A stretch of 64,000 nucleotides of DNA from Streptomyces sp. NBC_01264 (GTDB lineage: Bacteria > Actinomycetota > Actinomycetes > Streptomycetales > Streptomycetaceae): assembly GCF_026340675.1 (NCBI RefSeq), contig NZ_JAPEOX010000001.1, positions 3,038,001-3,102,000 on the forward strand. The letters run 5' to 3'. Shown here piece by piece: positions 6,736 to 48,273 of this stretch. The notes under the pieces were generated by a model. It saw nothing but the letters and a program-made list of their open reading frames with translations, was not told the origin of the DNA and made no database searches. Positions within the stretch are counted from its first letter, which is position 1. The number at the start of each line of letters is the position of its first letter. Both the position numbers and the translations under genes were made by a program.

Positions 6736-6818
6736 CCTGGTCATCACCCGGGGCACCCCGCCACGGAAGGAGGGTTGCCGGACAGCAAGCCGGGGCCTAA
6801 ACGCTGTCACTCGTGACC
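6736..6818 (-). promoter_or_regulatory. SAM-IV riboswitch
   Basis: The minus-strand sequence begins GGTCACGAGTGACAG, continues GGCCCCGGCTTGCTGTCCGG, CAACCCTCC, GGGGTGCCCCGGGTGA and ends TGACCAGG. The closing helix GGTCA/TGACC, the CCGGCTTGCTGTCCGG hairpin and the GGGGTGCCCC pseudoknot element match my memory of the actinobacterial SAM-IV class. It should repress the downstream aminotransferase operon when S-adenosylmethionine is abundant. It occupies part of the 465-bp gap 6469-6933; the rest holds the leader ORF and, beyond 6820, the trpD 3' region. Confidence 0.88.
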
Positions 6819-6933
6819 TGATGAGCATCCTGCCACATGGCCTTCCGAACGCACGACCCCGGTCCACATGGCGGACCGGGGTCGTGGCTTGATCTTGGCC
6901 GGATCCCGTCGGAAGGGCTCGGCTCAGGCTCCC

Positions 6934-7998
6934 CTACGCGTTGCTCGCCGCCACCCAGCGGGCCAGCGCCTCGCGGGCCGCGCCCGAGTCCACCGACTCC
7001 GCCGCCCGTGCGACACCGGCGGCGAGCTGCTCCTCCAGGGTGCCCGCACCCGGGTCCAGGGCCACCAGGGCGGCCGCCGAATTCAGGAGCACGGCATCGC
7101 GGACCGGGCCGGTCTCGCCGGCCAGCAGGCGCCGGGCCACGTCCGCGTTGTACGAGGCGTCCGCGCCTCCCAGCGCGGAGACGTCCACCAGCGGGATGCC
7201 GATGTCGCGCGGGTCGAAGCCCTGCTCGCGGACCTCTCCGTCGCGGACCCACCAGACCCGGGAGGTCGCCGTGGTGGTGAGCTCGTCGAGCCCGTCGTCA
7301 CCGCGGAAGACCAGCGCCGAGGAGCCCCGCTCCGCCAGGACGCCCGCGACGATCGGGGCCACCCGCGCGTCGGCCACACCGGTGGCCTGCGCCCGGACCC
7401 GCGCCGGGTTGGTCAGCGGGCCGAGGAAGTTGAAGGTGGTGCGGATGCCGAGCTCCCGGCGGGCTGCCGCCACATGCCGCAGCGCGGGGTGGAACTTGAC
7501 CGCGAAGCAGAAGGTGATCCCGGCTTCCTCGGCGACCTCCACGACCCGTGCGGGGGTGAGGTCGAGGTTGACGCCCAGCTTCTCCAGGACGTCCGAGGAG
7601 CCGCTCGCGGAGGAGGCGGCCCGGTTGCCGTGCTTGACCACCTTGGCGCCCGTACCGGCCACCACGATCGCCGACATCGTGGAGATGTTCACCGTCTTGG
7701 CCCCGTCGCCGCCGGTGCCGACGATGTCCACCGTCCGGCCCGGCACCTCGATCAGGTTGGCGTGTTCGTACATGGCGCGGACCAGGCCGTTGATCTCGGC
7801 CACGGTCTCCCCCTTGGCCCGCAGCGCGACGGCGAAGCCGGCGATCTGGGCGTCGGTGGCCTCCCCCCGCATGATCCGGTCCATGGCCCAGGCCGTGTCG
7901 TCGGCGCCGAGGTCCCGGCCGGACAGCAGTGCGTCCAGAACGCCCGGCCAACCGCGGGCCGCCACGCTGTCGCCACCTGCCGGGGTCACGAGGGTCAT
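6934..7998 (-). CDS. trpD: Anthranilate phosphoribosyltransferase
   Basis: 354 residues. It transfers phosphoribose from PRPP to anthranilate, the second step of tryptophan synthesis. The glycine-rich PRPP loop GTGGDGAKT, the NISTMSA element and KHGNRAASS are all present and the length is normal. The ATG at 7998 (MTLVTPAGG) is chosen because AGGAG sits 7 nt upstream; the frame stays open to 8121 by chance. The gene stands alone; no other trp genes are near. Confidence 0.95.
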
Positions 7999-8076
7999 GG
8001 TCCGCTCCTGCTGCTCGTCGAGGATTCCACGTCGAAAGGGGAAGGGTCCCAGCCTATCCAGCCCCGGGGACGGCAA

Positions 8077-8107
8077 AGAGCCCCGTCCAGACGCTGGACG
8101 GGGCTCT
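8077..8107 (-). terminator. Terminator of the ctaE-qcrCAB group
   Basis: Perfect 14-bp arms, AGAGCCCCGTCCAG and its complement, with a 3-nt loop, followed on the minus strand by TTTGCC. It lies 57 bp past the qcrB stop codon and before trpD. Confidence 0.85.
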
Positions 8108-8164
8108 CGCCGTGGCGACACCAGGACTGACCGAAATCAGTCCCTCAAGCTGTCAAGCCGGAGA

Positions 8165-9793
8165 TCAGTGGTGGCCGTGGCCGCTCTGGATCTCCTTGTA
8201 CTCCTCGACCGTGGGCTTGGGGATCTGGTTGTTCTCCCCGTAGTAGCCCTTGCTCAGCTTGGCGCGGACCTTCTCCAGCGGCTTCACCTTGCGCTCGACA
8301 CCGTTCTCGTCGACCGTCGGGCCGATCTCGACCGGCTCGTACTGGTCGTACGAGGTGAGCGCGTGCAGCTTGCCCTGCGAGAGCGGCTCGTGGACCTCGA
8401 CGAACTCACCGTGCGGCAGGCGCTTGATGATGCCGGTCTCGCGACCGTGCAGCACCTTGTCCCGGTCCCGGCGCTGGAGGCCGAGGCAGATCCGCTTGGT
8501 GATGATGAACGCGATGACCGGACCGACGAAGAACCCGATGCGGGCGAACCAGGTGATCGAGTTGATCGACAGGTGGAAGTACTGCGCGAACATGTCGTTT
8601 CCACCGGCGATCAGCAGGATGACGTACCACGTCAGCCATGCCACACCGAAGCCCGTGCGCGTCGGGGCGTTGCGCGGGCGGTCCAGGATGTGGTGCTCGC
8701 GCTTGTCCCCGGTGACCCAGGACTCGATGAACGGGTAGACCGCGATGGTGGCCAGGACCAGCGGGAAGATCGTGAACGGAATGAACACGCCCAGGGCCAG
8801 GGTGTGGCCCCAGAGGTTGATCTCCCAGCCGGGCATCGCACGGATCAGGCCCTCGGAGAAGCCCATGTACCAGTCGGGCTGCGCACCGGTGGACACGTGG
8901 TCCGGGCGGTACGGGCCGAGCGCCCAGATCGGGTTGATCGAGGCGATGCCCGCGATCAGCGCGATGACGCCGAAGACCAGGAAGAAGAAGCCTCCGGCCT
9001 TGGCCATGTAGACCGGGAGCAGCGGCATGCCGACGACGTTCTTCTCCGTCTTGCCGGGGCCCGCGAACTGGGTGTGCTTGTGGTAGAAGACCAGGATCAG
9101 GTGGGCCACCAGCAGGCCCATCATGATGCCGGGCAGCAGCAGGATGTGCACCGAGTAGAGCCGGCCCACGAAGTCGCCGCCGGGGAACTCCCCGCCGAAG
9201 AAGAAGAACGACAGGTACGTGCCCACGATCGGCACGGACAGCATCGCGCCTTCCATGAAGCGGACACCGGTGCCCGAGAGCAGGTCGTCCGGCAGGGAGT
9301 AACCGGTGAAACCGGTGAACATGCCGAGGACCAGCAGCAGGAAGCCGAAGACCCAGTTGACCTCACGCGGCTTGCGGAACGCGCCGGTGAAGAACACGCG
9401 CATCATGTGCACGAGCATCGCCGAGATGAAGATCAGCGCCGACCAGTGGTGGATCTGCCGGATGAGCAGACCGCCGCGGACGTCGAAGCTGATTTCCAGG
9501 GTGGACTTGAAGGCCTCCGACATCGCGACACCCTGCATGGGGATGTACGAACCGTCGTAGTGCACTTCGTTCATGCTCGGGTGGAAGAACAGCGTCAGGT
9601 ACACACCCGTGAGGATGAGGATGATGAAGCTGTAGAGGCAGATCTCGCCCAGCATGAAGGACCAGTGGTCCGGGAAGATCTTGCGCATGTTGGCCTTGGC
9701 GAGGCTGTAGATGCCCAGCCGGCCGTCGGCCCAGTCGGCTACGCGCTCGCCGGCCGGAGCCTTGCGCTCTTTGGTTTGAGTGGCAGTGCTCAT
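8165..9793 (-). CDS. qcrB: Cytochrome bc1 complex cytochrome b subunit
   Basis: 542-residue polytopic membrane protein that oxidises menaquinol and passes electrons through two b haems. Haem-ligand histidine regions are visible (RQIHHWSALIF near residue 118; HILLLPGIMMG near 220) and the quinol-site PDW motif occurs as QPDWYMGF. It is longer than proteobacterial cytochrome b, with an actinobacterial C-terminal cytoplasmic extension ending in His-rich GHGHH. Its ATG overlaps the qcrA stop codon (ATGA). In actinobacteria this complex forms a supercomplex with the aa3 oxidase encoded nearby. Confidence 0.96.
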   Translation of the reverse strand: MSTATQTKERKAPAGERVADWADGRLGIYSLAKANMRKIFPDHWSFMLGEICLYSFIILILTGVYLTLFFHPSMNEVHYDGSYIPMQGVAMSEAFKSTLEISFDVRGGLLIRQIHHWSALIFISAMLVHMMRVFFTGAFRKPREVNWVFGFLLLVLGMFTGFTGYSLPDDLLSGTGVRFMEGAMLSVPIVGTYLSFFFFGGEFPGGDFVGRLYSVHILLLPGIMMGLLVAHLILVFYHKHTQFAGPGKTEKNVVGMPLLPVYMAKAGGFFFLVFGVIALIAGIASINPIWALGPYRPDHVSTGAQPDWYMGFSEGLIRAMPGWEINLWGHTLALGVFIPFTIFPLVLATIAVYPFIESWVTGDKREHHILDRPRNAPTRTGFGVAWLTWYVILLIAGGNDMFAQYFHLSINSITWFARIGFFVGPVIAFIITKRICLGLQRRDRDKVLHGRETGIIKRLPHGEFVEVHEPLSQGKLHALTSYDQYEPVEIGPTVDENGVERKVKPLEKVRAKLSKGYYGENNQIPKPTVEEYKEIQSGHGHH

Positions 9794-10851
9794 CCGCGCT
9801 CCCAGAAAGAGGGACCGACGGGCTCTTCGAAGTCGCCGAGCGCCTCGAGGAAGCCTTCGTCATTGACGCCGATCCGCAGCTGCGGGAGCGCGTGACCAGC
9901 CGGGCCGAAGATGACTCGGGCGCCGTCGGAGAGGTCGAAGGTGGACTGGTGGCACGGGCAGAGCACGTGGTGCGACTGCTGCTCGTACAGGCTGATCGGG
10001 CAGCCGACGTGGGTGCAGATCTTGGAGTAGGCGACGATCCCGTCGTGGGACCACTCCAGCTCCTTCTTGTCCTTGATGTTCTCCGGCTGGATGCGGACGA
10101 TCATCAGGGCGGCCTTGGCGATCTGCGTCTGGAAGTCGTGCGCGTCCTCCTCCAGGCCTTCCGGCATGGCGAAGGTCAGCGAACCGACCACGATGTCCTC
10201 GGGACGAAGCGGCTCCATCGTGTTCTGGTTGATGAGCATCTTGCCCTTCGCCCAGATGGTCTTGCGCAGCTTGTCCTCGGGCAGCGGGCCCAGGTCGCGC
10301 AGGATCACGACGGCGGAGAGCGGCAGCAGGGCCAGCGCACCGAACATCGTGTTGCGGATGAGCGGGCGGCGGCCGATGGCCGACTCGCGCGCGCCGTCCG
10401 CGAAGTCCTGCAGGACCTGCGCCTTGACCTCCGGCGGGGCCGCGATCTCGTGGCGCTCGGCGGCGACCTCCACGTCGGACATCAGGGTGCGGGCCCAGTG
10501 GACCGCACCCGCGCCGATGGAGAAGAGGGCCACGCCGAGGCTCACGCCGAGGGCGAAGTTGAGAGCGCTCACCTTCCCGATGGGGAAGATGTAGACGATC
10601 TTATCGACCGGCAGGATCACGTACGAGGCGATGAAGGCGATCGTCGCCAGCATCGACAGCGTGAACAGCATGGCCACCGTGCGCTCGGAGCGCTTCGCGG
10701 CCCGCTCGTCGATGTCCTGGATCCGCGGCCGGTGGACCGGCAGGCCGGGGTCGGCGAACGGGTCGCTGTCCGGCACTGACACGTCACCGTGGTGCGCGTC
10801 GCCCTGCTCGCTCGGCAGGTGCTTCTCTTCGGGAATGTCTTGGCTACTCAT
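9790..10851 (-). CDS. qcrA: Cytochrome bc1 complex Rieske iron-sulfur subunit
   Basis: 353 residues. The Rieske motif reads CTHVGCPI followed by CPCHQSTFDL (about residues 283-312), giving the two Cys and two His that hold the 2Fe-2S cluster. The N-terminal half has three predicted membrane helices (about 58-80, 92-115, 165-190), the actinobacterial arrangement rather than the single-anchor form. It overlaps qcrC and qcrB by four bases on either side, so the subunits are translationally coupled. Confidence 0.96.
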   Translation of the reverse strand: MSSQDIPEEKHLPSEQGDAHHGDVSVPDSDPFADPGLPVHRPRIQDIDERAAKRSERTVAMLFTLSMLATIAFIASYVILPVDKIVYIFPIGKVSALNFALGVSLGVALFSIGAGAVHWARTLMSDVEVAAERHEIAAPPEVKAQVLQDFADGARESAIGRRPLIRNTMFGALALLPLSAVVILRDLGPLPEDKLRKTIWAKGKMLINQNTMEPLRPEDIVVGSLTFAMPEGLEEDAHDFQTQIAKAALMIVRIQPENIKDKKELEWSHDGIVAYSKICTHVGCPISLYEQQSHHVLCPCHQSTFDLSDGARVIFGPAGHALPQLRIGVNDEGFLEALGDFEEPVGPSFWERG

Positions 10852-11657
10852 GACTTCTTGGCCTTAGCGGTGTGGGCCGCGACCCAGACGGCGACAGCGA
10901 TCAGCGCACCCAGTCCGAAGATCCAGCCGAAGAGACCCTCGGAGACGGGGCCGAGGCCACCGAGCTTGAGGCCACCGGGGTTGGTCGACTTCTCGCCGTT
11001 GACGTGCTGGAGGTACGCGATGATGTCCTTCTTCTGCTTCTCCGGCATGGTGCTGTCGGGGAAGGAGGGCATGTTCTGCGGGCCGGTGAGCATGGCCTCG
11101 TAGATGTACTTCGGATCGACGCCCTCGAGGTTCGGGGCGTACTTGCCGTTCGTCAGTGCGCCGCCCTCGCCCGTGAAGTTGTGGCACTGCGCGCAGTTGT
11201 TGCGGAACAGTTCGCCACCCTTCGCGATGTCGGCACCCGCCGGGTCGTACTGCTTCTCGGTCGGCCTGATCGGGCCGGCTCCGAGGGAAGCGATGTACGC
11301 GGCGAGCTGGTCGGTCTGCGCCTGGGTGTAGATGACCGGCTTCTTCGGCACCTGGGCGCCGGGCTGCTGGGCGGGCATACGGCCCGTCATGACCTGGAAG
11401 TCGACGGCAGCGGAGCCGACGCCAACCAGGCTGGGGCCGTCAGAGGAACCCTGACCGCCGGTCCCGTGGCAGCTTGCGCAGCCGACGGCGTAGAGCTTCT
11501 GGCCCTCCTCGATGGCGAGGGACTGGACGGTTTCGTCGGCCTTCGCATTGCCCGCGGGCGCGAAGGCGCTGTACAGCCCCCCGGTAACCGCCAGCGCGAA
11601 GAGTAGAACGACGACCGCCGCCAGCGGATGGCGTCGTCGTGCGGAGAGCTTTTTCAC
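10848..11657 (-). CDS. qcrC: Dihaem cytochrome c subunit of the bc1 complex
   Basis: 269 residues with two CxxCH haem sites, CASCH (about residue 58) and CAQCH (about 157), so each polypeptide carries two c haems. There is an N-terminal membrane anchor and a C-terminal helix (about 240-262). In actinobacteria this fused cytochrome passes electrons directly to cytochrome aa3, replacing soluble cytochrome c. The start is GTG at 11657. It follows ctaE with a 76-bp gap. Confidence 0.96.
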   Translation of the reverse strand: MKKLSARRRHPLAAVVVLLFALAVTGGLYSAFAPAGNAKADETVQSLAIEEGQKLYAVGCASCHGTGGQGSSDGPSLVGVGSAAVDFQVMTGRMPAQQPGAQVPKKPVIYTQAQTDQLAAYIASLGAGPIRPTEKQYDPAGADIAKGGELFRNNCAQCHNFTGEGGALTNGKYAPNLEGVDPKYIYEAMLTGPQNMPSFPDSTMPEKQKKDIIAYLQHVNGEKSTNPGGLKLGGLGPVSEGLFGWIFGLGALIAVAVWVAAHTAKAKKS

Positions 11658-11733
11658 GGATTACCCCGGTGTCAGGATCTTCTGCGTCGGTGTGTCTGGA
11701 TGGAGTGCCGGGTCGGGCCCGGCGACGTGTTCG

Positions 11734-12354
11734 CTACTTGATCAGGTAGATCGTTGCGAAGAGGCCGATCCAGACGACATCGACGAAGTGCCAGTAGTAG
11801 GACACGACGATGGCCGACGTGGCCTGTTCGTGGGTGAACCTCTTGGCCGCGTACGTCCGGCCGAGGACCAGCAGGAAGGCGATGAGACCGCCCGTCACGT
11901 GCAGACCGTGGAAGCCGGTGGTCAGGTAGAAGACCGAGCCGTACGGACCGGACGAGAGGCTCATGCCCTCGTGCTTGACCAGCTCGGTGTACTCGAACAC
12001 CTGGCCGCCAATGAAGATCGCACCCATGACGAACGTGATGATGAACCACGTCCTGAGCTTCTTCACGTCACCGCGCTCGGCGGCGAATACGCCGAGCTGG
12101 CAGGTGAGCGAGGAAAGCACCAGGATCGTCGTGTTCGTCGCCGAGAAGGGCAGATTCAAGGCCGAAGCCTGTTCTGTCCAGTACTCGGCGCCTGTCACGG
12201 ATCGCAGGGTGAAGTACATCGCGAAGAGGGCCGCGAAGAACATCAGCTCGGAACTCAACCAGATGATGGTTCCCACGCTGACGAGGTTCGGCCTGTTGAC
12301 CGTCGGGTGCGCGTGCCCGGTATCTACTGTCGTTGCTGTCGCCACGACCGACAT
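11734..12354 (-). CDS. ctaE: Cytochrome c oxidase subunit III
   Basis: 206 residues with five predicted membrane helices and the family motifs [19 protein letters not shown] and [10 protein letters not shown]. It is part of the aa3-type terminal oxidase. It is the first gene of the ctaE-qcrCAB group while the other oxidase subunits lie 2.2 kb upstream, the usual actinobacterial split. An AAGGGA ribosome site lies about 8 nt from the ATG, and a perfect palindrome straddles the start codon. Confidence 0.95.
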
Positions 12355-12364
12355 TATGTCGGTC
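12346..12364. promoter_or_regulatory. Palindrome over the ctaE start codon
   Basis: GACCGACAT, a single central T, then ATGTCGGTC: perfect 9-bp arms overlapping the ctaE ATG and abutting its ribosome site. It could be a repressor operator. As RNA, a one-base loop would be strained. Confidence 0.4.
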
Positions 12365-12494
12365 CCTTATCCCGCCCTCACCCCGGGGGGTGCCGTTCGG
12401 AGTGTCAGGGGCGTGTGCAAGGCCCGAACGGCCCATCAGATCGCCCTGCCGACGCCCGTGGGCCGTCCCTCGGGCAAGGCTGTACGAACCGATG

Positions 12495-12521
12495 TTGACA
12501 CCGGGTCGGACGGAGTAGCAT
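12495..12521 (+). promoter_or_regulatory. Candidate promoter of the receiver-like gene
   Basis: TTGACA (12495-12500) and TAGCAT (12516-12521) with 15-bp spacing, slightly short for a vegetative promoter, 46 bp before the ATG at 12567. Confidence 0.45.
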
Positions 12522-12566
12522 CCCGCGCAACATCAACGTGATTCACGGGACACGTGGAGGAACGAA

Positions 12567-12968
12567 ATGCGGGCGACTGCGCGGGTTCTGGTCTACAGCG
12601 ACGACGCGGGCACCCGGGAGCAGGTGCGGCTGGCGGCCGGTCGCAGGCCGGCCGCAGACCTGCCGCCGGTGGAGTTCCTGGAGTGCGCCACGCTGCCGGC
12701 CGTCCTGAAGGAGCTGGACGCGGGCGGCATCGACGTGTGCGTGCTGGACGGCGAGGCGGTTCCGGCCGGGGGGATGGGGGTGTGCCGGCAGATCAAGGAC
12801 GAGATCTTCCAGTGCCCGCCCGTCCTGCTCCTGATGGGCCGTCCGCAGGACGCCTGGCTGGCCACCTGGAGCCGCGCGGACGCCGCGGTCACCCTTCCGG
12901 TTGATCCGGTGGACTTCGCGCAGGCCCTGGCGGGTCTGCTGCGCGCACGGCTCTCTCCGGCGGCCTGA
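12567..12968 (+). CDS. Degenerate response-regulator receiver-domain protein
   Basis: 133 residues matching a stand-alone receiver fold: VLVYSDDAG gives the acidic pair, CVLDGEA the phospho-acceptor Asp (about residue 57) and VLLLMG strand 4. The conserved Thr/Ser after strand 4 is replaced and the Lys of the KP motif is missing (VTLPVD), so normal phosphorylation switching is doubtful. There is no output domain. ATG follows GGAGG by 6 nt. It diverges from ctaE, so a role in controlling respiratory genes is possible, by location only. Confidence 0.7.
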   Translation: MRATARVLVYSDDAGTREQVRLAAGRRPAADLPPVEFLECATLPAVLKELDAGGIDVCVLDGEAVPAGGMGVCRQIKDEIFQCPPVLLLMGRPQDAWLATWSRADAAVTLPVDPVDFAQALAGLLRARLSPAA

Positions 12969-12971
12969 CGC

Positions 12972-13007
12972 GGCCTGCGGGGCCTGCGGGGCCTGCGGGG
13001 CCTGCGG
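12972..13007. repeat. 9-bp tandem repeat, four copies
   Basis: GGCCTGCGG is repeated four times without error, plus a partial fifth, just after the stop codon of the receiver-like gene. It is likely to vary by slippage. Confidence 0.85.
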
Positions 13008-13054
13008 GGCCTGTGCGCCCCGCAGGGGCCCGCACAGGCCTGTACCGGCGCATA

Positions 13055-13101
13055 CCGGGGCACGGGCACCCGTACGGTCCGTACGGGTGCCCGTGCCCCG
13101 G
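13055..13101. terminator. Strong bidirectional terminator
   Basis: Perfect 22-bp arms (13055-13076 and 13080-13101, beginning CCGGGGCACGGGCACC) with a 3-nt loop, between two convergent genes ending at 12968 and 13135. Confidence 0.88.
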
Positions 13102-13134
13102 CTGCGGCCTCTCCCGGCGCTCCTGGCCCGGTGG

Positions 13135-14382
13135 TTACACCTGCGGGCGCAGGCGGGCCTGGTCGACGGGGCTGCGGCCCTCCTGGGTGCCCTTGAGGAG
13201 GGCGCTGCCCTCGCGCCAGTCCTTCCAGTCCATGTTCCAGTCGCCGTAGCCGTTGCCGAAGGTGTCCATGTCGTCGCCGATGCTGTTGATGACGCGGACG
13301 ATGTCGCCTTCGGTGATGTTCTCGTAGAACCAGGCGGCGTTGCCCGTGCTCATGCCGGTGCAGCCGTGGCTGACGTTCTCGTAGCCCTGGGAGCCGACGG
13401 ACCACGGCGCGGCGTGGACGTATTCACCGCTCCAGGTGACGCGCGTCGCGTAGTAGACGGGCAGGTTGTAGTACTCGCTGCCGCCGATGCCCACGGTGTC
13501 CCCGCGCATCTGGACGTAGTACTGCTTGCCGAGGACCACCTTGACGCCGTTGCGGGTGGAGAAGCCCGGCTTTCCGGTGGTCACCGGGATGGAATTGATC
13601 ACTTCTCCGTTGCGCTTGAAGGTGAGCCAGTGCGAGGAGGCGTCCGTGGTGACCTCGACGCGGTCGCCGATCTCCAGCTTCAGCGGCTTGGAGGCGGCGC
13701 CGTGCAGGTCGTCGGAGATCTTGATGCCCTCCAGGTTGCTCCGTACGGAGACCGTGGTGTTGGCGGGCCAGTACTCCTTGGGCCGGTAGTGGAGCTTCTT
13801 GTCGTCCACCCAGTGCCAGGCGCCCACGGCCTCCGGCGGGGCGTCGACGATCAGGCCCCGCTCGATGACGGCGCGGGCGGCCTTGTCCTTCACGGGCTCG
13901 TTGAGTTCGGCCGTGAGGGGCTGTCCGACGCCGTACTTGCCCTCGTCCGGGCCGAATTCGACCTTGAGGACCTTCTTGGCCGGGGTGGTGTCGAAGGTGA
14001 GCGTGCGCTGCCCGGGGGCGCCCCGCTCGTCCTCGGTGCTCACGAGGACGGTGTAGCGGACACCTGCGGCCATCGGGACGGTGCTGTGCCAGCGGTCGCC
14101 GGAGGCGGACAACTCGCCCGCCAGGCGGCGTCCGTGGGTGTCCACGGCGCTCACGTCGGTGATCCGGCCGTCCCCGCTCTTGGCGGTGACTTCCAGGGGC
14201 CGGTCCGGGTCGACCGGGCGACTGCCGGTGGACTGGTTGAGGGCGACTTGGTCGCCCGCGTCGTAGGGGCGGGCGGACAGCGGGTTGTCGTCGCCCGACC
14301 CGCATGCGGTGGCGCCGGCCCCGAGGGACGCGACCAGCAGGGAGCAGCCGATAACGGTCCAAAGACGCGGTGACTGGTTCAT
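13135..14382 (-). CDS. L,D-transpeptidase lipoprotein with Ig-like domains
   Basis: 415 residues. It builds 3-3 peptidoglycan cross-links or attaches proteins, outside the membrane. The lipobox-type signal peptide ends ATAC-GSGDD, giving a lipidated Cys (about residue 27). Two Ig-like domains (about 50-250) precede the YkuD catalytic domain with HVHAAPW-like and SHGCTGMS motifs; the nucleophile is Cys about 341. This matches mycobacterial LdtMt2-type enzymes. ATG at 14382 was preferred to a TTG at 14409, though its ribosome site is weak. Confidence 0.9.
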   Translation of the reverse strand: MNQSPRLWTVIGCSLLVASLGAGATACGSGDDNPLSARPYDAGDQVALNQSTGSRPVDPDRPLEVTAKSGDGRITDVSAVDTHGRRLAGELSASGDRWHSTVPMAAGVRYTVLVSTEDERGAPGQRTLTFDTTPAKKVLKVEFGPDEGKYGVGQPLTAELNEPVKDKAARAVIERGLIVDAPPEAVGAWHWVDDKKLHYRPKEYWPANTTVSVRSNLEGIKISDDLHGAASKPLKLEIGDRVEVTTDASSHWLTFKRNGEVINSIPVTTGKPGFSTRNGVKVVLGKQYYVQMRGDTVGIGGSEYYNLPVYYATRVTWSGEYVHAAPWSVGSQGYENVSHGCTGMSTGNAAWFYENITEGDIVRVINSIGDDMDTFGNGYGDWNMDWKDWREGSALLKGTQEGRSPVDQARLRPQV

Positions 14383-40000: not shown

Positions 40001-41023
40001 ATGGCAATGGATCTGGCGGCGGCGACGGTGGACGCGGTGGCTCGGGCGGCCACCGCGGCGGTGACCTCGGCCGGCGGCGCGGCCGGCGGAATGGTCGTCG
40101 ACCTGGTGCGCGGCAGGCTGAACGGCGTGGACCAGGGGGCCGAGGCCGTCGCCGCGGTGGAGCGGACACCGGAGGATCCCGACGCCCGCTCGCAGCTGCG
40201 CGAGAAGCTCGCGGCGGTGCTGTCTGAGGACCCCGCGTTCGCCGCGTACCTGGCGAGCGTGCTGGCCCCGCCCCCGCCGGCCTCGCCGCCCAGCCTCGTC
40301 GGCAGCATCAACATCGACCGCAACGGCCGGGCCCGGGGCACCTTCGTCCTCGGCGACCAGGCGGTCACCAAGATCCGCCAGGGCAGCCCGGGCGCGCTCG
40401 TGGGCCTCCTGCTGATCGCCGCGCTGCTGGTCACGGCCATCTACGGGCTCGGCCGGCTGGTCACGGACGACGACGGGCAGTCGCCCGGCGGAAGCCGCGG
40501 AGGCGGGCGCCAGGTCAAGGTGCTCGATGACCCGGCGGTGGTCTCGTCCGTCGCGCCCGACCTCCACAGCATGCCGACCGGCTGGACCACCCGCTCCACG
40601 GACTCCCTCGAATCCGGCGCCGACGCCTGCCCGGACGGCACGGACTGCAAGGGGGTGCTGCACACGGCCCAGGCATCGTTCCGCAACCCCTTCGACCAGT
40701 CGGCGTCCTTCGCGGTGGTCGCCTGCGCCTCCGCCGCCGACGCGCAACGCGTCTACGAGGACATCGCCGGGACGAGCCTGCGGAGCGGCCGCCCGCTGGC
40801 CATGCCGGCGCTCGGCGACCAGTCGTCCGCCGCCGAGATGTCCAAGGGGCAGGGCCTGGCACTCGCCCGCGTCGGCACCGTGGTCGTCTACGTGTCCGAG
40901 AAGGGCAGCAACGACGACTACGAGGTCGAAACGCTGCAGGCGCTCGCGCAGATGGTGGCGCAGCGCGCCCAGGAGGCCCAGAACGGCCAAACCCCCTCCT
41001 CCCGGGCGAACCTGCGGAGCTGA
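40001..41023 (+). CDS. Single-pass membrane protein of unknown function
   Basis: 340 residues. A helical cytoplasmic domain (1-115, Ala-rich) is followed by one transmembrane helix (about 128-150, GALVGLLLIAALLVTAIYGL). The extracellular domain (about 170-325) has a cysteine pair in ACPDGTDC. No known domain recognised. ATG follows GGGGGG by 5 nt. It converges on the polysaccharide cluster but its promoter faces away, so membership is not implied. Confidence 0.7.
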   Translation: MAMDLAAATVDAVARAATAAVTSAGGAAGGMVVDLVRGRLNGVDQGAEAVAAVERTPEDPDARSQLREKLAAVLSEDPAFAAYLASVLAPPPPASPPSLVGSINIDRNGRARGTFVLGDQAVTKIRQGSPGALVGLLLIAALLVTAIYGLGRLVTDDDGQSPGGSRGGGRQVKVLDDPAVVSSVAPDLHSMPTGWTTRSTDSLESGADACPDGTDCKGVLHTAQASFRNPFDQSASFAVVACASAADAQRVYEDIAGTSLRSGRPLAMPALGDQSSAAEMSKGQGLALARVGTVVVYVSEKGSNDDYEVETLQALAQMVAQRAQEAQNGQTPSSRANLRS

Positions 41024-41054: not shown

Positions 41055-41912
41055 TCACCGCGCCCGGCCGCAGGTCCTGCGCCAGGCGCCCAGGTCGTAC
41101 TTCTTCTCCAGGGAGCTGAGCTTCAGCGTGGTGGTGCCGGCGCAGAACCGGCCCGCCGGGAGTTCGTACTCCACGTGGAAGACCGCCTTGCCCGCCGCGA
41201 TGAACGGGGTCAGCCGGGCGCACTCGTCGTACTGGGCGCACTGCTCGTTGACCGCGAAGTCGAAGTCCCCCACCAGCTCCGGGATCTGGTCCAGATCGTT
41301 CTTCAGCCCGACCGACAGCCCCCGGTCGTGCGCGAGCCGCGCGATCAGCCGGTTGTACTTCAGCTGGTCGCCGGCGGTGAGAGGGAAGCCGGACGTGTTG
41401 CGGTAGGCGTCCATGTTGTCCGGCTCCACCGCGTCGAAGCCCTTGTCCCGGCACATGTCGAACCGCTTGGCGATCAGCGGTTCCAGTTCCGTGAGCCGCC
41501 GGATGTCGAGCCAGCGCTCGCCCTCCCAGCCGTTGCCCGTCCCGCGCATCGACGGCGGGAAGGCCTCGGCGTCCGGGCGGAAGTCCTCCCACGCCCCGGT
41601 GGAGAGGTAGCAGATGGTCCGCCGGCCGGCCGCGTTCAGCTCGGCGACCTGCTCCTTGGTGGTGGTGAACCCGTCGATGTCGTAGACCGCGGCCTTCACG
41701 GAGGTGTCGAGCTTCCCGGTGAGCTGCCACTGCCAGCTGACCCCGGGCGCCGGCCGCCAGCGCTCGCCCGGCGCCGGGGCCGGCGAGAGGTCGTCGGGCC
41801 GGTCCTCGTCCCCGTCCGGGCCGGAGGTGCAGGCCGCGAGCAGGAGGACGGGGACGAGGGCGAGGAGCAGCAGGGCGCGGCGGCCGGCCCGGCGGGTGGG
41901 CGGGCGTCTCAT
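41055..41912 (-). CDS. GH114-like endo-alpha-1,4-galactosaminidase lipoprotein (Ega3-like)
   Basis: 285 residues. The signal peptide ends in a lipobox LLAAC (Cys28), so the enzyme should be anchored outside the membrane. The GH114/TM1410 barrel begins WQWQLTGKLD and contains YDIDGF, CYLSTGAWEDFR, the acid in AVEPDNMDAY (Asp165) and the second in VNEQC (Glu223). These match the Asp/Glu pair known for fungal Ega3, which cuts galactosamine-rich polysaccharide. Its ATG overlaps the upstream GH135-like stop codon. It is the last gene of the five-gene exopolysaccharide cluster and probably trims or releases the polymer. Confidence 0.88.
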   Translation of the reverse strand: MRRPPTRRAGRRALLLLALVPVLLLAACTSGPDGDEDRPDDLSPAPAPGERWRPAPGVSWQWQLTGKLDTSVKAAVYDIDGFTTTKEQVAELNAAGRRTICYLSTGAWEDFRPDAEAFPPSMRGTGNGWEGERWLDIRRLTELEPLIAKRFDMCRDKGFDAVEPDNMDAYRNTSGFPLTAGDQLKYNRLIARLAHDRGLSVGLKNDLDQIPELVGDFDFAVNEQCAQYDECARLTPFIAAGKAVFHVEYELPAGRFCAGTTTLKLSSLEKKYDLGAWRRTCGRAR

Positions 41913-42568
41913 CCGGCGGCCTCCAGTGCGTACGGCAGGGTCCCCCACGGGTGCGCGCCGGTCCCCGGGACCGCGCAGTGCACCCCCGCCCCGCGCTGGG
42001 CCGCGAGCCGTTCGGCGAGTTCGGCGGCCGGGGCGCCCGGCGGGACGGCGTAGACGAGGTGGCAGAACCGCTGGGCGGGATGGTCGGCGGTCCACGGGGG
42101 AACGGCCGCGTCCCGGTAGGCGTCCCAGGGGCCCTCGAAGGTGACGAGCAGGTCGGCGAGTTCGGCGTAGCCCGGGTGCGGGTGCACTCCGTGGTTCAGG
42201 ACCACGGTACGGGCCCCGGCGGCCCGCGCCGCGACGGCGAGCCGCCGGTAGTGCGGCAGGAACTCCGGGCCCGCCGCGGCCTGGTCCAGGAAGGTCCCGT
42301 CGGCGGCGTACCAGTCGCGGTGGCGCAGCAGGTCCTGGACCACGGCGGCGTGCGGGCGGCGCCCGTAGTCGGTGTCGACGTACCCCAGGACGGGCACCCC
42401 GGCCCCGCGCAGCCGCTCCGCCACGGCGGCGAACCGCTCGTCGGGGGCCTCGCCCGGCCCGCTGGCGGGGTTGAGCACCACGGAGTGCAGCCGGCCCGCG
42501 GAGCGGATGAGCCGCTCCCAGTACTCGGGGCGGTCGGCGGGGTGCTCGTAGAGGGGCACCAGGAGCAT
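41909..42568 (-). CDS. Spherulin-4/GH135-like glycosidase (Sph3-like)
   Basis: 219 residues forming a small TIM barrel of the spherulation-specific family 4. Shared motifs: start LLVPLYEHP, LGYVDTDYG, DGTFLDQ and VTFEGPWDAY. Fungal Sph3 (GH135) hydrolyses GalNAc-containing galactosaminogalactan using an Asp-Glu pair and a later Glu; here Asp95 and Glu145 are kept but the Glu after Asp95 is Gln96. No signal peptide is visible, unlike fungal Sph3; a GTG at 42595 would add nine residues but no export signal. ATG 42568 has AAGGA upstream. It overlaps the GH114 gene (ATGA). Confidence 0.82.
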   Translation of the reverse strand: MLLVPLYEHPADRPEYWERLIRSAGRLHSVVLNPASGPGEAPDERFAAVAERLRGAGVPVLGYVDTDYGRRPHAAVVQDLLRHRDWYAADGTFLDQAAAGPEFLPHYRRLAVAARAAGARTVVLNHGVHPHPGYAELADLLVTFEGPWDAYRDAAVPPWTADHPAQRFCHLVYAVPPGAPAAELAERLAAQRGAGVHCAVPGTGAHPWGTLPYALEAAG

Positions 42569-42630
42569 GAGGTCCTTCTTCTCGTACGGGTTCACGTGCG
42601 GCGGGGACGGGAGGGGGAAGGGGCGGGGCC

Positions 42631-44265
42631 TCAGCGGTGGGCCGTGGCGCGGCCGAGCAGCAGGCACACCAGCGTGCCCAGCGCGAGCGCCGCGGCTCCG
42701 GCGACGGCCAGTTGCACGGCGCGCGGCTGTCCGAGGCCCAGGAGCAGGGCCAGGCTCTGCGCGACGGCGGCCGAGGCGCAGACCACCGCGGCGGGCCGGA
42801 CCGCCCCGAAGGACTGCAGGAGCAGCCCGGTCCACATCACGGCGCCGAGCAGCAGCAGGGTGGCGACCCGGACCCCGGTCAGGCCGGGTGCGCCGGGCCA
42901 GAGCAGGGTTCCGGTGAGGCCGAGGGCCAGCAGCACCACCAGGTAGGTGGCGAGGCACCGGGCGAGGGTGCTGAGCATCCGCAGCCGGAACTGCCGGGGC
43001 GAACGGGCCGCGCGCAGCCCGGCGAGGCTGCCGCTGCGGAACCGGTGGAGCAGCCATTCGGCGGGGCCCATGCTGAGGGTGAGCGCCACCGCCGAGGGGG
43101 CGGCGACCGCCTCGGCGGGGCCGCCGGCGAGCACCTCCCCCAGGGCCGCGTACAGCACGAGCAGACCGGTGCCCAGGCCGAACACCCCGTACGGGACGGA
43201 GTCCCCGAGCCGGGGTCCGCGCGGTGCGTACTCCTCCTCGGCGCCGCGCAGCATCTGCCAGCGCACCGGGCCCCCGCGGCCCGGCCGGTGTTCCGTCCAG
43301 GCGCGGACGCGGAGCACGAGGGTCCGTACGCCGTCGGCCAGCGGGAGTTCCCGTACGGCCAGGGCGCAGGCGGCCAGGAGGGAGGCCGTCAGGAGGAACA
43401 CCCTGACCGGAACGGGCAGTTCCACGAGGAGCGTGAGCAGCGCCCCGGCGGCCATCGGGGCGAGCGCGGCCAGCAGCAGCCGCTCCCGCCCGAGGACGAG
43501 CAGGACGGTGGCGGCCCCGACGTACAGGGCCTGACCGGCCGCGAAGGCGTAGGAGAAGGGGGGCCCGCCGGGTACCGCCAGCGCGGCGGCGGTCCCCAGG
43601 AGGGCCCCCGCCGGGGCTCCGGCGAGCAGGGTCCGCCCGGCGGCGGCCCGGTCGCCGAGGCCGAGCCAGGAGTACGCCCGGTGGGACAGGGTCTGGTCCC
43701 AGACCCAGCCGATGAGCGCCCCGGCGAGCAGGGTGAGCGTCCCGGCGGGCAGCCCCAGCCGGTCCTTGGGCCCGTCCAGCAGGGGCGCGCCCAGCAGGTA
43801 GGCGAGCCCGGGCAGGGCGAAGATCACCCCGCGCAGGAGGCAGGCGGTGAGGGGCACCTTCCAGGGGTCGGGGACCCGGTCGGGCTCCGGGAAGGAGCGC
43901 GGCACCCGGGCGTAGAGCTCCTCGGCGAGGCCGAAGGAGTCCTGGCGTCCGTAGGCGAGGCGGATGTGCTCGTCGGTCATGCCGTCGGATTCCAGGACGG
44001 CGGCGATCTCGTCGGGGTGGACGGCGGCGGCGATGAAAGCGTCGAGGCGCTCGGCGAGTTCGTCCATCGGGTCGGCGGCCGGTCCGTCGCGTCCGTCGCG
44101 TCCTTCGCGTCCTTCGCGTCCTTCGCGGCGCGGCCGGGGGATGCCGGGCAGGGCGTCGGCCGCGTCGGCGGCGGGCGCCGTACCGCGCCCGGCGGCCGCG
44201 GCGTGCGCGACGGAAACCCAGCTCCCGTCCGGGCCGGGGGGCTTGAGCCAGAGCGATCCGCTCAC
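42631..44265 (-). CDS. Polytopic membrane protein of the exopolysaccharide cluster (PelG/Gtb3-membrane-part role)
   Basis: 544 residues. A cytoplasmic N-terminal region (1-120) has a low-complexity Arg-Glu-Gly/Arg-Asp-Gly linker and a helical motif (DEIAAVLESDGMTDEHIR...YGRQDSFGLAEELY). About 12 membrane helices follow (about 130-540). In Pel and fungal galactosaminogalactan systems a PelF-type transferase works with a multi-helix membrane partner that exports the chain, and this protein is in that position. Sequence similarity to PelG itself is not obvious to me. GTG at 44265 overlaps the transferase stop codon, with GGAG 6 nt upstream. Confidence 0.7.
   Translation of the reverse strand: MSGSLWLKPPGPDGSWVSVAHAAAAGRGTAPAADAADALPGIPRPRREGREGREGRDGRDGPAADPMDELAERLDAFIAAAVHPDEIAAVLESDGMTDEHIRLAYGRQDSFGLAEELYARVPRSFPEPDRVPDPWKVPLTACLLRGVIFALPGLAYLLGAPLLDGPKDRLGLPAGTLTLLAGALIGWVWDQTLSHRAYSWLGLGDRAAAGRTLLAGAPAGALLGTAAALAVPGGPPFSYAFAAGQALYVGAATVLLVLGRERLLLAALAPMAAGALLTLLVELPVPVRVFLLTASLLAACALAVRELPLADGVRTLVLRVRAWTEHRPGRGGPVRWQMLRGAEEEYAPRGPRLGDSVPYGVFGLGTGLLVLYAALGEVLAGGPAEAVAAPSAVALTLSMGPAEWLLHRFRSGSLAGLRAARSPRQFRLRMLSTLARCLATYLVVLLALGLTGTLLWPGAPGLTGVRVATLLLLGAVMWTGLLLQSFGAVRPAAVVCASAAVAQSLALLLGLGQPRAVQLAVAGAAALALGTLVCLLLGRATAHR
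44082..44126 (-). repeat. In-frame 9-bp tandem repeats in the membrane-protein gene
   Basis: Five copies: two of GTCCGTCGC then three of GTCCTTCGC, encoding REG/RDG triplets in the N-terminal linker. Copy changes would keep the frame. Confidence 0.85.
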
Positions 44266-45785
44266 CACAGGCTCCCGTCGGCGGCGAGTTCCTTGTACCA
44301 GGGGTCGGCGAGGCGCTGCGTCCACTCGTCGCCCACGTGGACGGGCAGGACGGGCTGGCCGGCGAGCTCGCGGTAGATGTGGCGGAAGCCGTCCACGGAC
44401 TGGTGGAGCGTGAACTTCTCGACCACCCGCTTGCGGGACATCCGGCCCAGCTCCGCACGGCGTTCGTCGTCGCGGAGCAGGGCCAGGGTGGCGCGGGCCA
44501 TGGTCTCGGGCTCGCGCGGCGGGACGACGAGGCCGGTGTCGCCGACGGCCTCGCGGACCCCGCCCACGTCGGTGGAGACGGTGGTGCGGCCGCAGGACAT
44601 GGCCTCGATGATGGAGAAGGGGAAGCCCTCGCTGATGGAGGAGAGCATCACGATGGAGCCGGCCCCGTAGGCGCGGGCCACGTCGTCGATGCGGCCCTCG
44701 TAGGTGATCCCGTCGCTCACGCCGAGTTCGGCGGCGAGCTTCTCCAGCTTGAGCTTGTAGTCCTCGCAGCCCGCCGGGACCGGGCCGAAGAGGCGCAGCC
44801 GCAGGGCGGGGAGTTCCTCGCGCATGAACGCGTAGGCCCGGACGAGGGTTTCGAGGTCCTTGATGGGGTCGATGCGGCCGCACCAGCTCAGGGTGGGGAC
44901 CTCCGGTTCGGGGCCCGCCTGGGGGAAGGCGTGCGGGTCGACGCCGTTGTAGACGGTGCGGATCCGCTCGGAGTCGGCGCCCCCGCGCTCCTCCCAGCGG
45001 CGGTTGTACTGGTTGCACGGGGTGATCAGGTCGGCCTGGCGGTAGCCCTCGGTGTTGAGCTCGCGGTAGAAGCCGAGCATGAGTGCCTTGACGGGCCAGC
45101 GCTGTTCGGCGCTGCGGTAGCCGAGGTAGCGCTCGCGCAGGTAGATGCCGTGCTCGGTGAGCAGGAACGGGACCTCGTCGAGGTACTTCGCGGCGAGCGC
45201 GGGGAGGGTGGCCAGTCCGCTGCTGACGGCGTGGGCGACGCTGTCGGGCGGGATCCGCACGGACAGCGGGCGCAGCGCGTGTTCCAGCAGGTCGGTGGCG
45301 GTGAGCGCGTCGTGGATGGTGGGCTCGGCGGCGGTGGTGACCAGACCGGGGCGGGTCCAGACGGTCATCAGCAGGCGCAGCACCGATTCGGACCGCAGGG
45401 CCGCGGCGAGCCGCCCGGCGCGGGCGAGCCGGGCCAGTTCGCGCAGGGATTCGGAGAACCCGCGTGCCGCGTCGGGAGCCGGGTCGAGCAGGGAGAGCAG
45501 GAAGGTCTCGTAGGTCTCGGCGAACGCGCGTCGGGCCTTGCCGCGCAGTCCGGAGCGCAGTCTGCGGGCCGGCGGAGCGCCCCAGAGGGGAACGCTGGTG
45601 TGGCGGTAGACGTTGCGCGGCAACTCCCAGGTGACCGGCTCGCGTCCCGAGCCGGTCAGGGCTATGACGTTGAAGTCGACCTCCGGCATGCCGCGGACCA
45701 GTTGGTCGCACCACGTGCTGACGCCCCCGTGGACGTGCGGGTAGGTGCCTTCGGTGAGCATGGTGACATGACGCCCATGGCTCAT
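44262..45785 (-). CDS. PelF-like family 4 glycosyltransferase
   Basis: 507 residues. The N-terminal DUF3492 domain begins MLTEGTYPHVHGGVSTWCDQ, the PelF signature. The C-terminal GT4 half has LSWCGRIDPIKDLETLVRAYAFM and the EX7E donor-binding motif in SEGFPFSIIEAMSCG. PelF uses UDP-sugars to make GalNAc/GlcNAc polymers in the cytoplasm; fungal Gtb3 has a similar domain. ATG at 45785 has GGGGGG about 9 nt upstream. It is coupled to the membrane protein by a GTGA overlap. Confidence 0.9.
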   Translation of the reverse strand: MSHGRHVTMLTEGTYPHVHGGVSTWCDQLVRGMPEVDFNVIALTGSGREPVTWELPRNVYRHTSVPLWGAPPARRLRSGLRGKARRAFAETYETFLLSLLDPAPDAARGFSESLRELARLARAGRLAAALRSESVLRLLMTVWTRPGLVTTAAEPTIHDALTATDLLEHALRPLSVRIPPDSVAHAVSSGLATLPALAAKYLDEVPFLLTEHGIYLRERYLGYRSAEQRWPVKALMLGFYRELNTEGYRQADLITPCNQYNRRWEERGGADSERIRTVYNGVDPHAFPQAGPEPEVPTLSWCGRIDPIKDLETLVRAYAFMREELPALRLRLFGPVPAGCEDYKLKLEKLAAELGVSDGITYEGRIDDVARAYGAGSIVMLSSISEGFPFSIIEAMSCGRTTVSTDVGGVREAVGDTGLVVPPREPETMARATLALLRDDERRAELGRMSRKRVVEKFTLHQSVDGFRHIYRELAGQPVLPVHVGDEWTQRLADPWYKELAADGSLW

Positions 45786-45903
45786 GCGGTGTGTCCCCCC
45801 AAGGACGGAAAAGGGGCCGGCGCCCGTGGTTGGCGGAGCGCCGGCGCTAGGTGGTACGCGTGGCTGTCTTGTACGTGCCCGGCTGGTCAGGGCAGGCGGA
45901 GCG

Positions 45904-47928
45904 TCACGGCATGTGCAGCGTGACGGCGCTCTGGAGCAGCTCGGGGGCCGTCCAGGTGGAGCGGGTGCCGGCGTAGGCGGTGCCGAAGTCCGCGGTGCCC
46001 AGCAGGAGCTGCTTCTTCGTGCCGGTGGGCGCGGTGACCGGGGCCACGACTCCGGAGGGCGCCTTGACGGTGACGTCCTTGCCGATGCGGTAGGCGGTGA
46101 CCTGGTTGGCGGCGATCGCTGCGTTCCAGGCCGCGCGGCGCTGGAGCTCGACGCCGGTGTCCTTCATGCTCTGGTTCACGAGCGGCGCGCTGGGCGCGTA
46201 GAGGGTGCGGTAGCCGTCGAGGACCTGGTTGAGCACCGGGTAGAGGGTGCGGTCCTCGGCGAGGTTGGACTGGTGGACGTAGTGCGGGCGCGGGTCGTTG
46301 TTCAGGACGTGCCGCATGGCGGTCCTGGCCTCGGCCGGGACGATGTAGTTCAGGTAGCCGGTGGCGGCGTCGAGCGGGGCCGGCAGGCAGGTGGAGGTGC
46401 CGGGGTTGTCCTCGCAGATGCCGCTGCCGCCGTCGGCCCGGCTGGTGTAGATCCAGTTGTACTCGTCGGCCATCTCGGCGTTGGTGCCCGTGTTGTAGTA
46501 CACGTTCATCGGGTACCGGGGGACGGTCAGCGCGGCGCCCACGGGCCGCTGCACGGGTTCGCGGGAGTTGTCGCTGCCCGCCCACTTCACGCCGTTGTCG
46601 GCGAGCGCGCCGGCCAGGTTGGGGTTGTCCTGGGGCTGCTGCGGAAGGGTCTTGAGGCCGGAGTGCTCACCGGTGACCAGTTCGGTGCGGTCGGTGGTGA
46701 TGCCCTTGGAGGCGGCCCAGTTGTTGTTGTCCCGGATCTGCGCGGAGATCTCGGAGCGGCTCATGTAGTTGATCGCGCCGGCGCTGTTCTTCGTACAGGT
46801 CCAGGGCACGGTGGTGGTGTTCTGGACGCAGCCGAGGAACGGGTGGGTGTAGGTGTGGTTCATCCACCGGTACTTCGCCCGGTCGGCGATCAGCTGGGCG
46901 GTGAGGGCGTCGGTGTTGCCGTTCTCGGCCTTCCACTCCTCGCCCGCGCCCGCGTTGAAGAGCAGGTCGAGCTTGAAGTTCTTGGACGTCTGCCACTGCG
47001 CCAGGTACTGGGCGTCGGCGGCCGTCATCCGGATCGTGGACTCCTTGCCCTCGCCGCCGGCGCAGGCGTAGTCGCCCGGGGTGCAGTTCAGGTCCTTGTT
47101 CCAGCGGGCGTCGGGGGCGAAGACGTCGTCGACGTGGACCGCGAAGTAGTTGCGCTCCTGGCCGAGGTGGACTCCCTGGGTGACCCACTCGACGATGCCC
47201 CGGGCTAGCAGCCGGAACTGCTGCTGGTGCTGGTTGTAGCCGAAGGTGACGACCAGCTCGCTGCGCCCGTCGTGGGTGTACTCGCCGACCAGCGAGGCCC
47301 GTCCGGAACCGACCGGGGCGTCCAGGTAACTGGTGTAGCCGGTCCGCGGCTTGGCCATGAACCCGTAGCTCTCGGGGATCAGCGGCGAGTTGTCCTCGAA
47401 GGCCACCTGCCCCCCGAGGTAGGCGAAGGGGCCGGCCTTGCCGGCGGTGGTGACGGCGGCCTGCGTGCCGTCCAGGGTGCCGCTGAAGCCTCCGTTGTCG
47501 GTGTACTCCAGGCCGACGCCCGGGTGCGCCCAGGTGTAGGCGTCGACCTGACGGATCCCGTACGCCGTCTCGTACGCGGTGAGCGCGGCCATCTCCGCCG
47601 AGCCCTCCCCGAACGGGTTCTCGTTCGGCAGCACCACGCCCTGGAACTTGGCGCGCGGCCGCCCGTCGACCGTGTCGGCGAGGAAGGCCGCGTTGACGAC
47701 CGGCCGGCTGCCGCTGCCCAGGTCGACGCGGGTGTACGGAACCCCCGTGTCACGGAGTTCCGCCGTGATCGCCTCGACCGAGCTCCCGCCGTCGTCGACG
47801 ACGAGGACCCGCAGGTCGATCCGCGGAGTCACCGCGGCCTGCGCGGCCGCTCCGGGTACCGCGACGGATGCTATGGCCGCAGCGAGGCAGACGGCGGCGA
47901 GCCTGTTCATCCGGTTCTTGTGGACCAT
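45904..47928 (-). CDS. Agd3-like secreted polysaccharide deacetylase (CE18-like)
   Basis: 674 residues. A Sec signal peptide (cleavage after about residue 31, AAAQA-A) shows export. N-terminal domain about 35-255; the deacetylase barrel follows, with YFAVHVDDVF (Asp267/Asp268) and MNHTYTHPF (His358, His362) forming the Asp-His-His metal site; beta-rich C-terminus to 674. The long N-terminal domain and these motifs match fungal Agd3, which deacetylates galactosaminogalactan and makes it cationic and adhesive, rather than ordinary CE4 enzymes. ATG at 47928 has AAAGG upstream. It is the first gene of the cluster, 118 bp before the transferase. Confidence 0.85.
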   Translation of the reverse strand: MVHKNRMNRLAAVCLAAAIASVAVPGAAAQAAVTPRIDLRVLVVDDGGSSVEAITAELRDTGVPYTRVDLGSGSRPVVNAAFLADTVDGRPRAKFQGVVLPNENPFGEGSAEMAALTAYETAYGIRQVDAYTWAHPGVGLEYTDNGGFSGTLDGTQAAVTTAGKAGPFAYLGGQVAFEDNSPLIPESYGFMAKPRTGYTSYLDAPVGSGRASLVGEYTHDGRSELVVTFGYNQHQQQFRLLARGIVEWVTQGVHLGQERNYFAVHVDDVFAPDARWNKDLNCTPGDYACAGGEGKESTIRMTAADAQYLAQWQTSKNFKLDLLFNAGAGEEWKAENGNTDALTAQLIADRAKYRWMNHTYTHPFLGCVQNTTTVPWTCTKNSAGAINYMSRSEISAQIRDNNNWAASKGITTDRTELVTGEHSGLKTLPQQPQDNPNLAGALADNGVKWAGSDNSREPVQRPVGAALTVPRYPMNVYYNTGTNAEMADEYNWIYTSRADGGSGICEDNPGTSTCLPAPLDAATGYLNYIVPAEARTAMRHVLNNDPRPHYVHQSNLAEDRTLYPVLNQVLDGYRTLYAPSAPLVNQSMKDTGVELQRRAAWNAAIAANQVTAYRIGKDVTVKAPSGVVAPVTAPTGTKKQLLLGTADFGTAYAGTRSTWTAPELLQSAVTLHMP

Positions 47929-48037
47929 TTCGGCCTTTCCCCCCGCAGATCCTCGACTTCGGTCCGTGGCGCTGGGCCGGACCGGGGAGGCTTCTGTGGA
48001 AATGATGCAAAGGAACCCCGCGTCCCCTTGCGAGAGT

Positions 48038-48069
48038 GGTCCGAGTGTTTCGGACCTCATGAGGTCCGA
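48038..48069. promoter_or_regulatory. Triple alternating 7-mer dyad upstream of the exopolysaccharide cluster
   Basis: GGTCCGA (48038-48044), TCGGACC (48050-48056) and GGTCCGA (48063-48069). The last two form the perfect 20-bp palindrome TCGGACCTCATGAGGTCCGA (48050-48069). It lies 110-140 bp before the deacetylase start in the 345-bp divergent gap to pepA, where I see no ORF. Likely a regulator-binding site. Confidence 0.6.
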
Positions 48070-48273
48070 GGGGCAAACGTGCAACAGAGGCCACAGATGG
48101 GTGAACCCGACGGCCACATGATCGAACAACTTGCCAAATCTTCGAGTGGCGTGCGGACGAGCGCGTGCGCGTAGGCTCGTTTCCGGCGGCCGACGGGCCC
48201 GAATACGATCGCTACGGATGGCCGTCCACCCACTCGGCCCACACCATCAAAACGGAAGCGAGAATTCACCACC

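Follow-up and report, generated by a model that had tools for sequence, protein, structure and literature searches.

A conserved Streptomyces gene cluster predicted to synthesise, export and trim a galactosaminogalactan-like polymer

The window analysed here, a 64,000-nucleotide stretch of Streptomyces sp. NBC_01264, holds five minus-strand genes whose models encode, in order, a deacetylase, a GT4 glycosyltransferase, a membrane protein, a GH135-like protein and a GH114-like protein (Table 1). These models confirmed the single strand and the gene order described in the initial annotation, together with its 4-nt overlaps and short gaps: the GT4 and membrane-protein genes overlap by 4 nt, as do the GH135 and GH114 genes, while the membrane-protein gene ends 35 nt before the GH135 gene and 118 nt separate the deacetylase from the GT4 gene. 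The upper end of the cluster, previously set at 48069, probably lies too far out, since the likeliest deacetylase start is the ATG at 47928, preceded by GGGGGGAAAGG, most of which is conserved across a set of 26 close sequences that contains the window's own. Of twenty other genes scanned in the window, most belong to basic metabolism or other housekeeping functions, such as cytochrome bc and oxidase, nadA, aceE and cobalamin genes, and the cluster therefore appears to sit in a core region. Positions 40001-41023 encode a 340-aa protein with a GAF match under the cut-off; this gene was ruled out as a member of the system, having no counterpart in 80 related loci.

Table 1. Features of the cluster, with positions counted from the first nucleotide of the window.
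Feature	Position	Strand	Length or remark
CE18/Agd3-like polysaccharide deacetylase, Sec-type leader	45904..47928	-	674 aa
PelF-type GT4 glycosyltransferase (DUF3492), cytosolic	44262..45785	-	507 aa
MOP-superfamily-like 12-TM exporter, N-terminal helical domain at about residues 62-122	42631..44265	-	544 aa
GH135/Sph3-like putative endo-alpha-1,4-N-acetylgalactosaminidase, leaderless, predicted cytosolic	41909..42595	-	228 aa
GH114/Ega3-like putative endo-alpha-1,4-galactosaminidase, lipoprotein	41055..41912	-	285 aa
Divergent intergenic region with pepA; presumed operon promoter	47929..48273	-	blocks conserved among 26 close sequences

Six regulator or promoter patterns were tried, and none occurred in the window's intergenic region (47929..48273). 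A BldD-like pattern was present in 10 of 81 intergenic regions, where shuffles averaged 2.55, and a CRP-like one in 19, where they averaged 8.85; both are absent from the window's region, and the shuffles ignore kinship. A SigE-like pattern occurred in 2/81, and MtrA-, BldN- and TTGAC-type patterns in 0/81. We assign no regulator to the operon.

The deacetylase gene was found in about half of the sampled genomes of the genus (53/101) and in 9 of 296 genomes of the phylum, four of these nine belonging to the window's genus and including the window's genome. For the neighbourhood we used the best 80 of 485 relatives from a scan of named genomes, all close to the query and all titled Streptomyces bar one titled Actinobacteria bacterium. 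In this set pepA adjoins the deacetylase in 80/80 loci, and lpd is kept in 79/80. Seventy of the best 80 loci were judgeable, extending at least 7,600 nt beyond the deacetylase start; all five genes stood in the same order in 59 of these 70, GH114 alone was missing in 7, and the remaining 4 lacked another gene or more than one. The neighbourhood is conserved, and the position beside pepA in all 80 loci and the presence of all five genes in 59 of the 70 judgeable ones argue that the grouping is not due to chance. Two loci that reach about 12 kb from the deacetylase start are reduced, L081 having the deacetylase with GH135 only and L083 the deacetylase without any of the other four genes.

As a single sequence, the deacetylase scored 24.3 bits against Pfam Agd3_CE, under the cut-off of 27.6, and had no match in the PDB. 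Profile A1, built from nine actinobacterial deacetylases (9 rows), matched Agd3 (6nwz) at E 1.6e-49 in two stretches, Agd3 26-312 and 378-679, which make up most of both proteins; the next PDB matches were heparan sulfate N-deacetylase entries at 1.2e-8. Homology extends over the CBM87, CE and C-terminal regions, and the catalytic motifs are conserved among 80 family members, with HVDD in 78/80, NHTYTH in 74/80, TGEHSG in 80/80 and HQSN in 78/80; their assignment to CM1-CM4 is our own mapping from the Agd3 alignment and PMC12022489. A hydrophobic leader precedes the deacetylase in 69/80 loci. By these matches the window's protein is a CE18/Agd3-like enzyme, predicted to be secreted and to de-N-acetylate a GalNAc polymer.

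The GT4 protein matched Pfam DUF3492 (PF11997) at E 8.6e-59 and the NCBIfam PelF equivalog (NF038011) with 171.6 bits, over the cut-off of 100. Its neighbour, the membrane protein, had no family match in Pfam or NCBIfam; its structural model contains 12 long helices in the MATE/MurJ/Wzx arrangement of the MOP superfamily, although the Foldseek E-values were weak, none being 0.001 or lower. The protein thus models as an exporter of PelG's superfamily with no detectable sequence similarity to PelG. Identification as PelG itself was rejected, as there was no Pfam match and hhalign against three PelG sequences gave a probability of 0.1; the PelG family PF16933 likewise had no match in the window's own genome. 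Predicted proteins of other bacteria bear on how the two gene products work together. A search with the GT4 part at the combined length of GT4 and exporter matched 607 proteins, mostly nameless and known at the protein level rather than from contigs. Among the 120 matches listed, 29 were longer than 850 residues; membrane segments were predicted after the GT4 part in 28 of these 29, and the exporter-family profile matched 18/29 at E 3.2e-5 or better. Such fusions support a single synthase-exporter unit, and with the MOP-like fold they bear out the earlier placing of the membrane protein in the exporter slot. Separate and GT4-fused exporters have in common an N-terminal helical domain with the pattern DEIAAxLESDGxTD...YGxxDxFxLAExLYxR, a candidate domain by which the GT4 may dock. 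None of the 120 listed matches carried a fungal name that would mark a Gtb3-like protein, most being nameless.

Two putative hydrolases complete the cluster. The GH114 protein matched Glyco_hydro_114 (PF03537) at E 3.6e-81 and Ega3 (6oj1) at E 8.7e-55, which places it in the family, and its relatives have a lipobox-like motif in 58/60 cases and a hydrophobic leader in 59/60. The GH135 protein matched Pfam Spherulin4 at E 1.9e-32 and Sph3 in the PDB at E 4.1e-9, combining the family profile with the TIM-barrel fold of Sph3. Its presumed catalytic residues D104 and E154 are invariant (71/71) and align with FDE and FEA in Sph3; all 71 sequences also have Gln directly beside D104, where fungal Sph3 has Glu. 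A hydrophobic leader was found before GH135 in 0/70 loci, compared with 69/80 for the deacetylase and 59/60 for GH114, and we therefore predict that GH135 is cytosolic. The absence bears on where the enzyme works and not on its family membership: the Sph3-like assignment stands on the profile and the Sph3 match, but the membrane-bound, extracellular location of the fungal type does not. One of the trimming enzymes thus appears to act inside the cell instead of outside. Taken together, profile searches, structure matches and neighbourhood bore out the CE18, PelF/DUF3492, GH135 and GH114 assignments of the initial annotation.

We consider it fairly probable, judging from these homologies, that the cluster serves the synthesis, export and trimming of a partly de-N-acetylated, cationic polymer, probably an alpha-1,4-GalNAc/GalN homopolymer or one resembling galactosaminogalactan (GAG). 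While gene content, conservation, family and fold matches, leaders and fusions were computed, the biochemical steps are all inferred from homology, as are the sugar and the docking. UDP-GalNAc supplied by a genomic GalE-type epimerase would be polymerised by the cytosolic PelF-type GT4, and the membrane protein with the MOP fold would let the chain out, possibly while holding the GT4 in place by means of its N-terminal helical domain. Outside the cell, the CE18 enzyme would strip part of the N-acetyl groups, and the GH114 lipoprotein would cut deacetylated stretches at the cell surface, setting chain length or release. Because its leader is absent, we propose a quality-control role for GH135: it could break down fully acetylated chains if these stall or build up on the cytosolic side. 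A role of the polymer in hyphal adhesion, pellets or biofilm is what we infer for the organism. The product could instead be a glycan attached to the wall (teichoic-acid-like or capsular) or a polymer of the sporulation coat rather than a free biofilm matrix, given that the MOP fold is also that of the lipid-linked sugar flippases WzxE and MurJ, that GH114 is a lipoprotein, and that galactosamine in Streptomyces walls is cited by Bamford et al. (2020, PMC7229062). We regard this as rather improbable, as no lipid-carrier transferase, polymerase or ligase is encoded among the five genes and the GT4-exporter fusions favour a synthase-type system.

The pepA site was also inspected in six genomes of the genus that lack the deacetylase, of which G193 was picked for a known GH114 match and the other five for having one or few contigs. 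A strong GH114 match stood there alone in two (G313 and G193), and the other four had no cluster gene of comparable strength; weak GH114 profile matches (E 9e-6 to 7e-12) occurred on further frames in all six. The lone GH114 genes lie at L167 and L172, and the G193 match contains one TGA. A GH114 gene beside pepA in 2/6 such genomes (one of the six being picked for its GH114 match), and the reported disruption of microbial biofilms by Ega3, would suit hydrolases and a deacetylase aimed mainly at the GAG or Pel of competing fungi or bacteria, with the GT4-exporter pair incidental. Such a role seems very unlikely to us: the five genes occur together in 59/70 judgeable loci, and a leaderless GH135 should not reach a foreign polymer.

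Less certain than the type of machinery is the sugar that it polymerises. As the initial annotation had stated, an epimerase would have to be encoded elsewhere: a Pfam scan found none among the five genes, no sugar-nucleotide gene lies in the operon, and two putative GalE-type genes, with matches over the family cut-off, were present elsewhere in the genome. Related operons are equipped differently. A class-2 Streptomyces operon (L108, L109, L118), paralogous to the window's class-1 operon, combines deacetylase, GT4 and exporter with a GH135 gene farther along, whose product is leaderless, and has no GH114; a fourth locus, L115, retains a deacetylase fragment only. Between exporter and GH135, family scans found in L118 an SDR and a LegB-like 4,6-dehydratase, the latter at E 1.3e-134 and 447.9 bits where the cut-off is 475; in L109 they found a sugar nucleotidyltransferase. 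By eye, L108 has the LegB-like dehydratase, SDR and nucleotidyltransferase. The dehydratase and nucleotidyltransferase suggest a 6-deoxy-HexNAc polymer for class 2. SDR genes and a nucleotide-sugar dehydrogenase over the cut-off accompany deacetylase, GT4 and exporter in L110 (G204, another family of the class) and in a distant operon of the same genus, L116 (G296), which also carries a distant GH114. L117 has the deacetylase without the other four genes. In L114 (G294), an Agd3-type gene broken by stop codons, possibly a decaying copy or a sequencing error, lies beside two GT4 genes, an exporter and GH114.

Since the class-2 operon, L110 and L116 carry sugar-nucleotide genes, the module can probably polymerise other sugars, which makes GalNAc likely, not certain, for the class-1 polymer. 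The earlier proposal of a partly deacetylated GalNAc/GalN-type polymer accordingly keeps the backing of profiles, structures and neighbourhood, but with less certainty about GalNAc. The same machinery could build its chain from a different alpha-linked HexNAc, perhaps with GlcNAc in it or made of a 6-deoxy-HexNAc, and CE18 would still deacetylate this product and the hydrolases trim it. This reading gains weight from the dehydratase, nucleotidyltransferase and SDR of class 2, from the dehydrogenases of L110 and L116 and from the lack of an epimerase gene in the window's operon. We think it unlikely for the window's class, which has no such sugar genes and a GH114 close to Ega3 (8.7e-55); GalN/GalNAc polymers are substrates of characterised members of both GH114 and GH135 (PMC12054363).

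Further arrangements were seen. G011 and G041, both actinobacterial genomes, each have an Agd3-type gene directly after PelF- and PelG-type genes, rows that link CE18 to Pel machinery. L112 and L113, in actinobacterial genomes other than the window's, are Pel/GAG hybrid operons; at about 6300-13150 they carry consecutive PelF, PelG and Agd3-type genes, and on the opposite strand a Spherulin4 gene whose product bears a leader. A second DUF3492 (PelF-type) locus of the window's genome (L157:10715-15327; G000:C1:6296715-6301327) comprises a GT4, an SDR, an exporter-like frame and a Spherulin4 gene. The exporter-like frame is shortened and matches part of the exporter profile (E 2.6e-7). The Spherulin4 protein has no leader, carries other residues in place of both the Asp and the Glu of the alignment, and may be a relative without catalytic activity. 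We take the adjoining gene, from its sequence, to be moeZ/moeB-like.

A broader and more speculative reading, which we hold tentatively and think more apt to fail than to stand, is that Actinobacteria possess a third type of GalNAc-family synthase. In it, the conserved N-terminal helical domain would couple a PelF-type GT4 to an exporter that has the MOP fold but no sequence relationship to PelG, and a cytosolic GH135 would police the chain before export. The module would be sugar-swappable: class 1 (pepA-linked, with GH114) would make a GalNAc/GalN polymer and class 2 (own sugar-nucleotide genes, no GH114) a 6-deoxy-HexNAc polymer, while a third, moeZ-like-linked relative would have a shortened exporter and a GH135-like protein without the presumed catalytic residues. 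The cluster offers a genetically easy system for studying the synthesis and export of GAG- and Pel-type chains, and its leaderless GH135 opens to experiment the question of why a gene set for making a polymer should include an enzyme that breaks this polymer down.

Agd3 operons of this kind are not new. Bamford et al. (2020, Nat Commun, PMC7229062) described bacterial operons with a glycosyltransferase, a multi-span membrane protein and GH114, with spherulin-4 in some Actinobacteria, so the operon is not the first of its kind; they also cite, besides the galactosamine-containing polysaccharide of Streptomyces walls, an S. griseus endo-galactosaminidase. Both descriptions share the Agd3 homologue, cytoplasmic glycosyltransferase, multi-span membrane protein and GH114. 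The operon section of that paper does not give the spherulin-4 location, the membrane-protein fold, GT4 fusions or a pepA-linked Streptomyces class, some of which its figure or supplements may show. Added here, some of it new structural and topological detail, are the exporter modelled with a MOP fold, the GT4 fusions, the leaderless GH135, the sugar genes in related operons and the GH114 tree. Among the papers listed by our literature search, most subscription papers being outside its scope, there was none on a Streptomyces GAG or Pel product, on a leaderless GH135 or on DUF3492 in Streptomyces.

The same paper backs earlier suggestions of transfer from bacteria to fungi. Our GH114 tree, midpoint-rooted and with several long branches, comprised 65 rows from actinobacteria and fungi only: the window's GH114 with 12 of 60 operon proteins, 27 of 29 other loci (L140 and L148 failed the length or score filter) and 25 of 120 further matches listed. 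All 25 fungal rows, of which 6 lack a source name, fell into one group (100/100), and the row closest to this group was a single further actinobacterial sequence, L135 (100/99). The 13 Streptomyces rows, among which L120 also fell, lay apart. In this tree the fungal enzymes are not specifically sister to the window's GH114, and we rejected recent transfer between the Streptomyces cluster and fungi, as the sampled rows set the two apart.

With the Aspergillus GAG cluster (uge3, gtb3, agd3, ega3, sph3; PMC4817252, PMC12054363) the operon shares the Agd3, Ega3 and Sph3 families as well as a glycosyltransferase and membrane export; characterised GH135 acts on acetylated and GH114 on more deacetylated GAG (PMC12054363). 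It differs in having no Uge3-type epimerase, in its leaderless GH135, where fungal Sph3 is described as membrane-bound, and in dividing glycosyltransferase and membrane protein between two genes where Gtb3 is a single chain. As Gtb3 is a putative transmembrane glycosyltransferase (PMC4817252), the split GT4 and exporter genes parallel it. Pel systems, both Pseudomonas pelA-G and Gram-positive pelDEADAFG (PMC7112168, PMC13254593, PMC12022489), likewise have a PelF-type GT4, a 12-helix exporter of the MOP superfamily and an extracellular deacetylase. However, the five Streptomyces genes include no PelD, PelE or PelG family member, a Pfam scan of these genes and two neighbours found no PelD/PelE c-di-GMP module, and the deacetylase resembles CE18, while PelA of P. 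aeruginosa is the founding member of CE21. Within Streptomyces, the likeness to MatAB (PMC5972031) is that of an exopolysaccharide, the MatAB product being needed for hyphal aggregation; its PNAG is beta-1,6-GlcNAc, a different polymer. If our reading is correct, this industrially important genus would have, in addition to MatAB PNAG, a cationic galactosamine polymer as its second polymer for adhesion and pellets.
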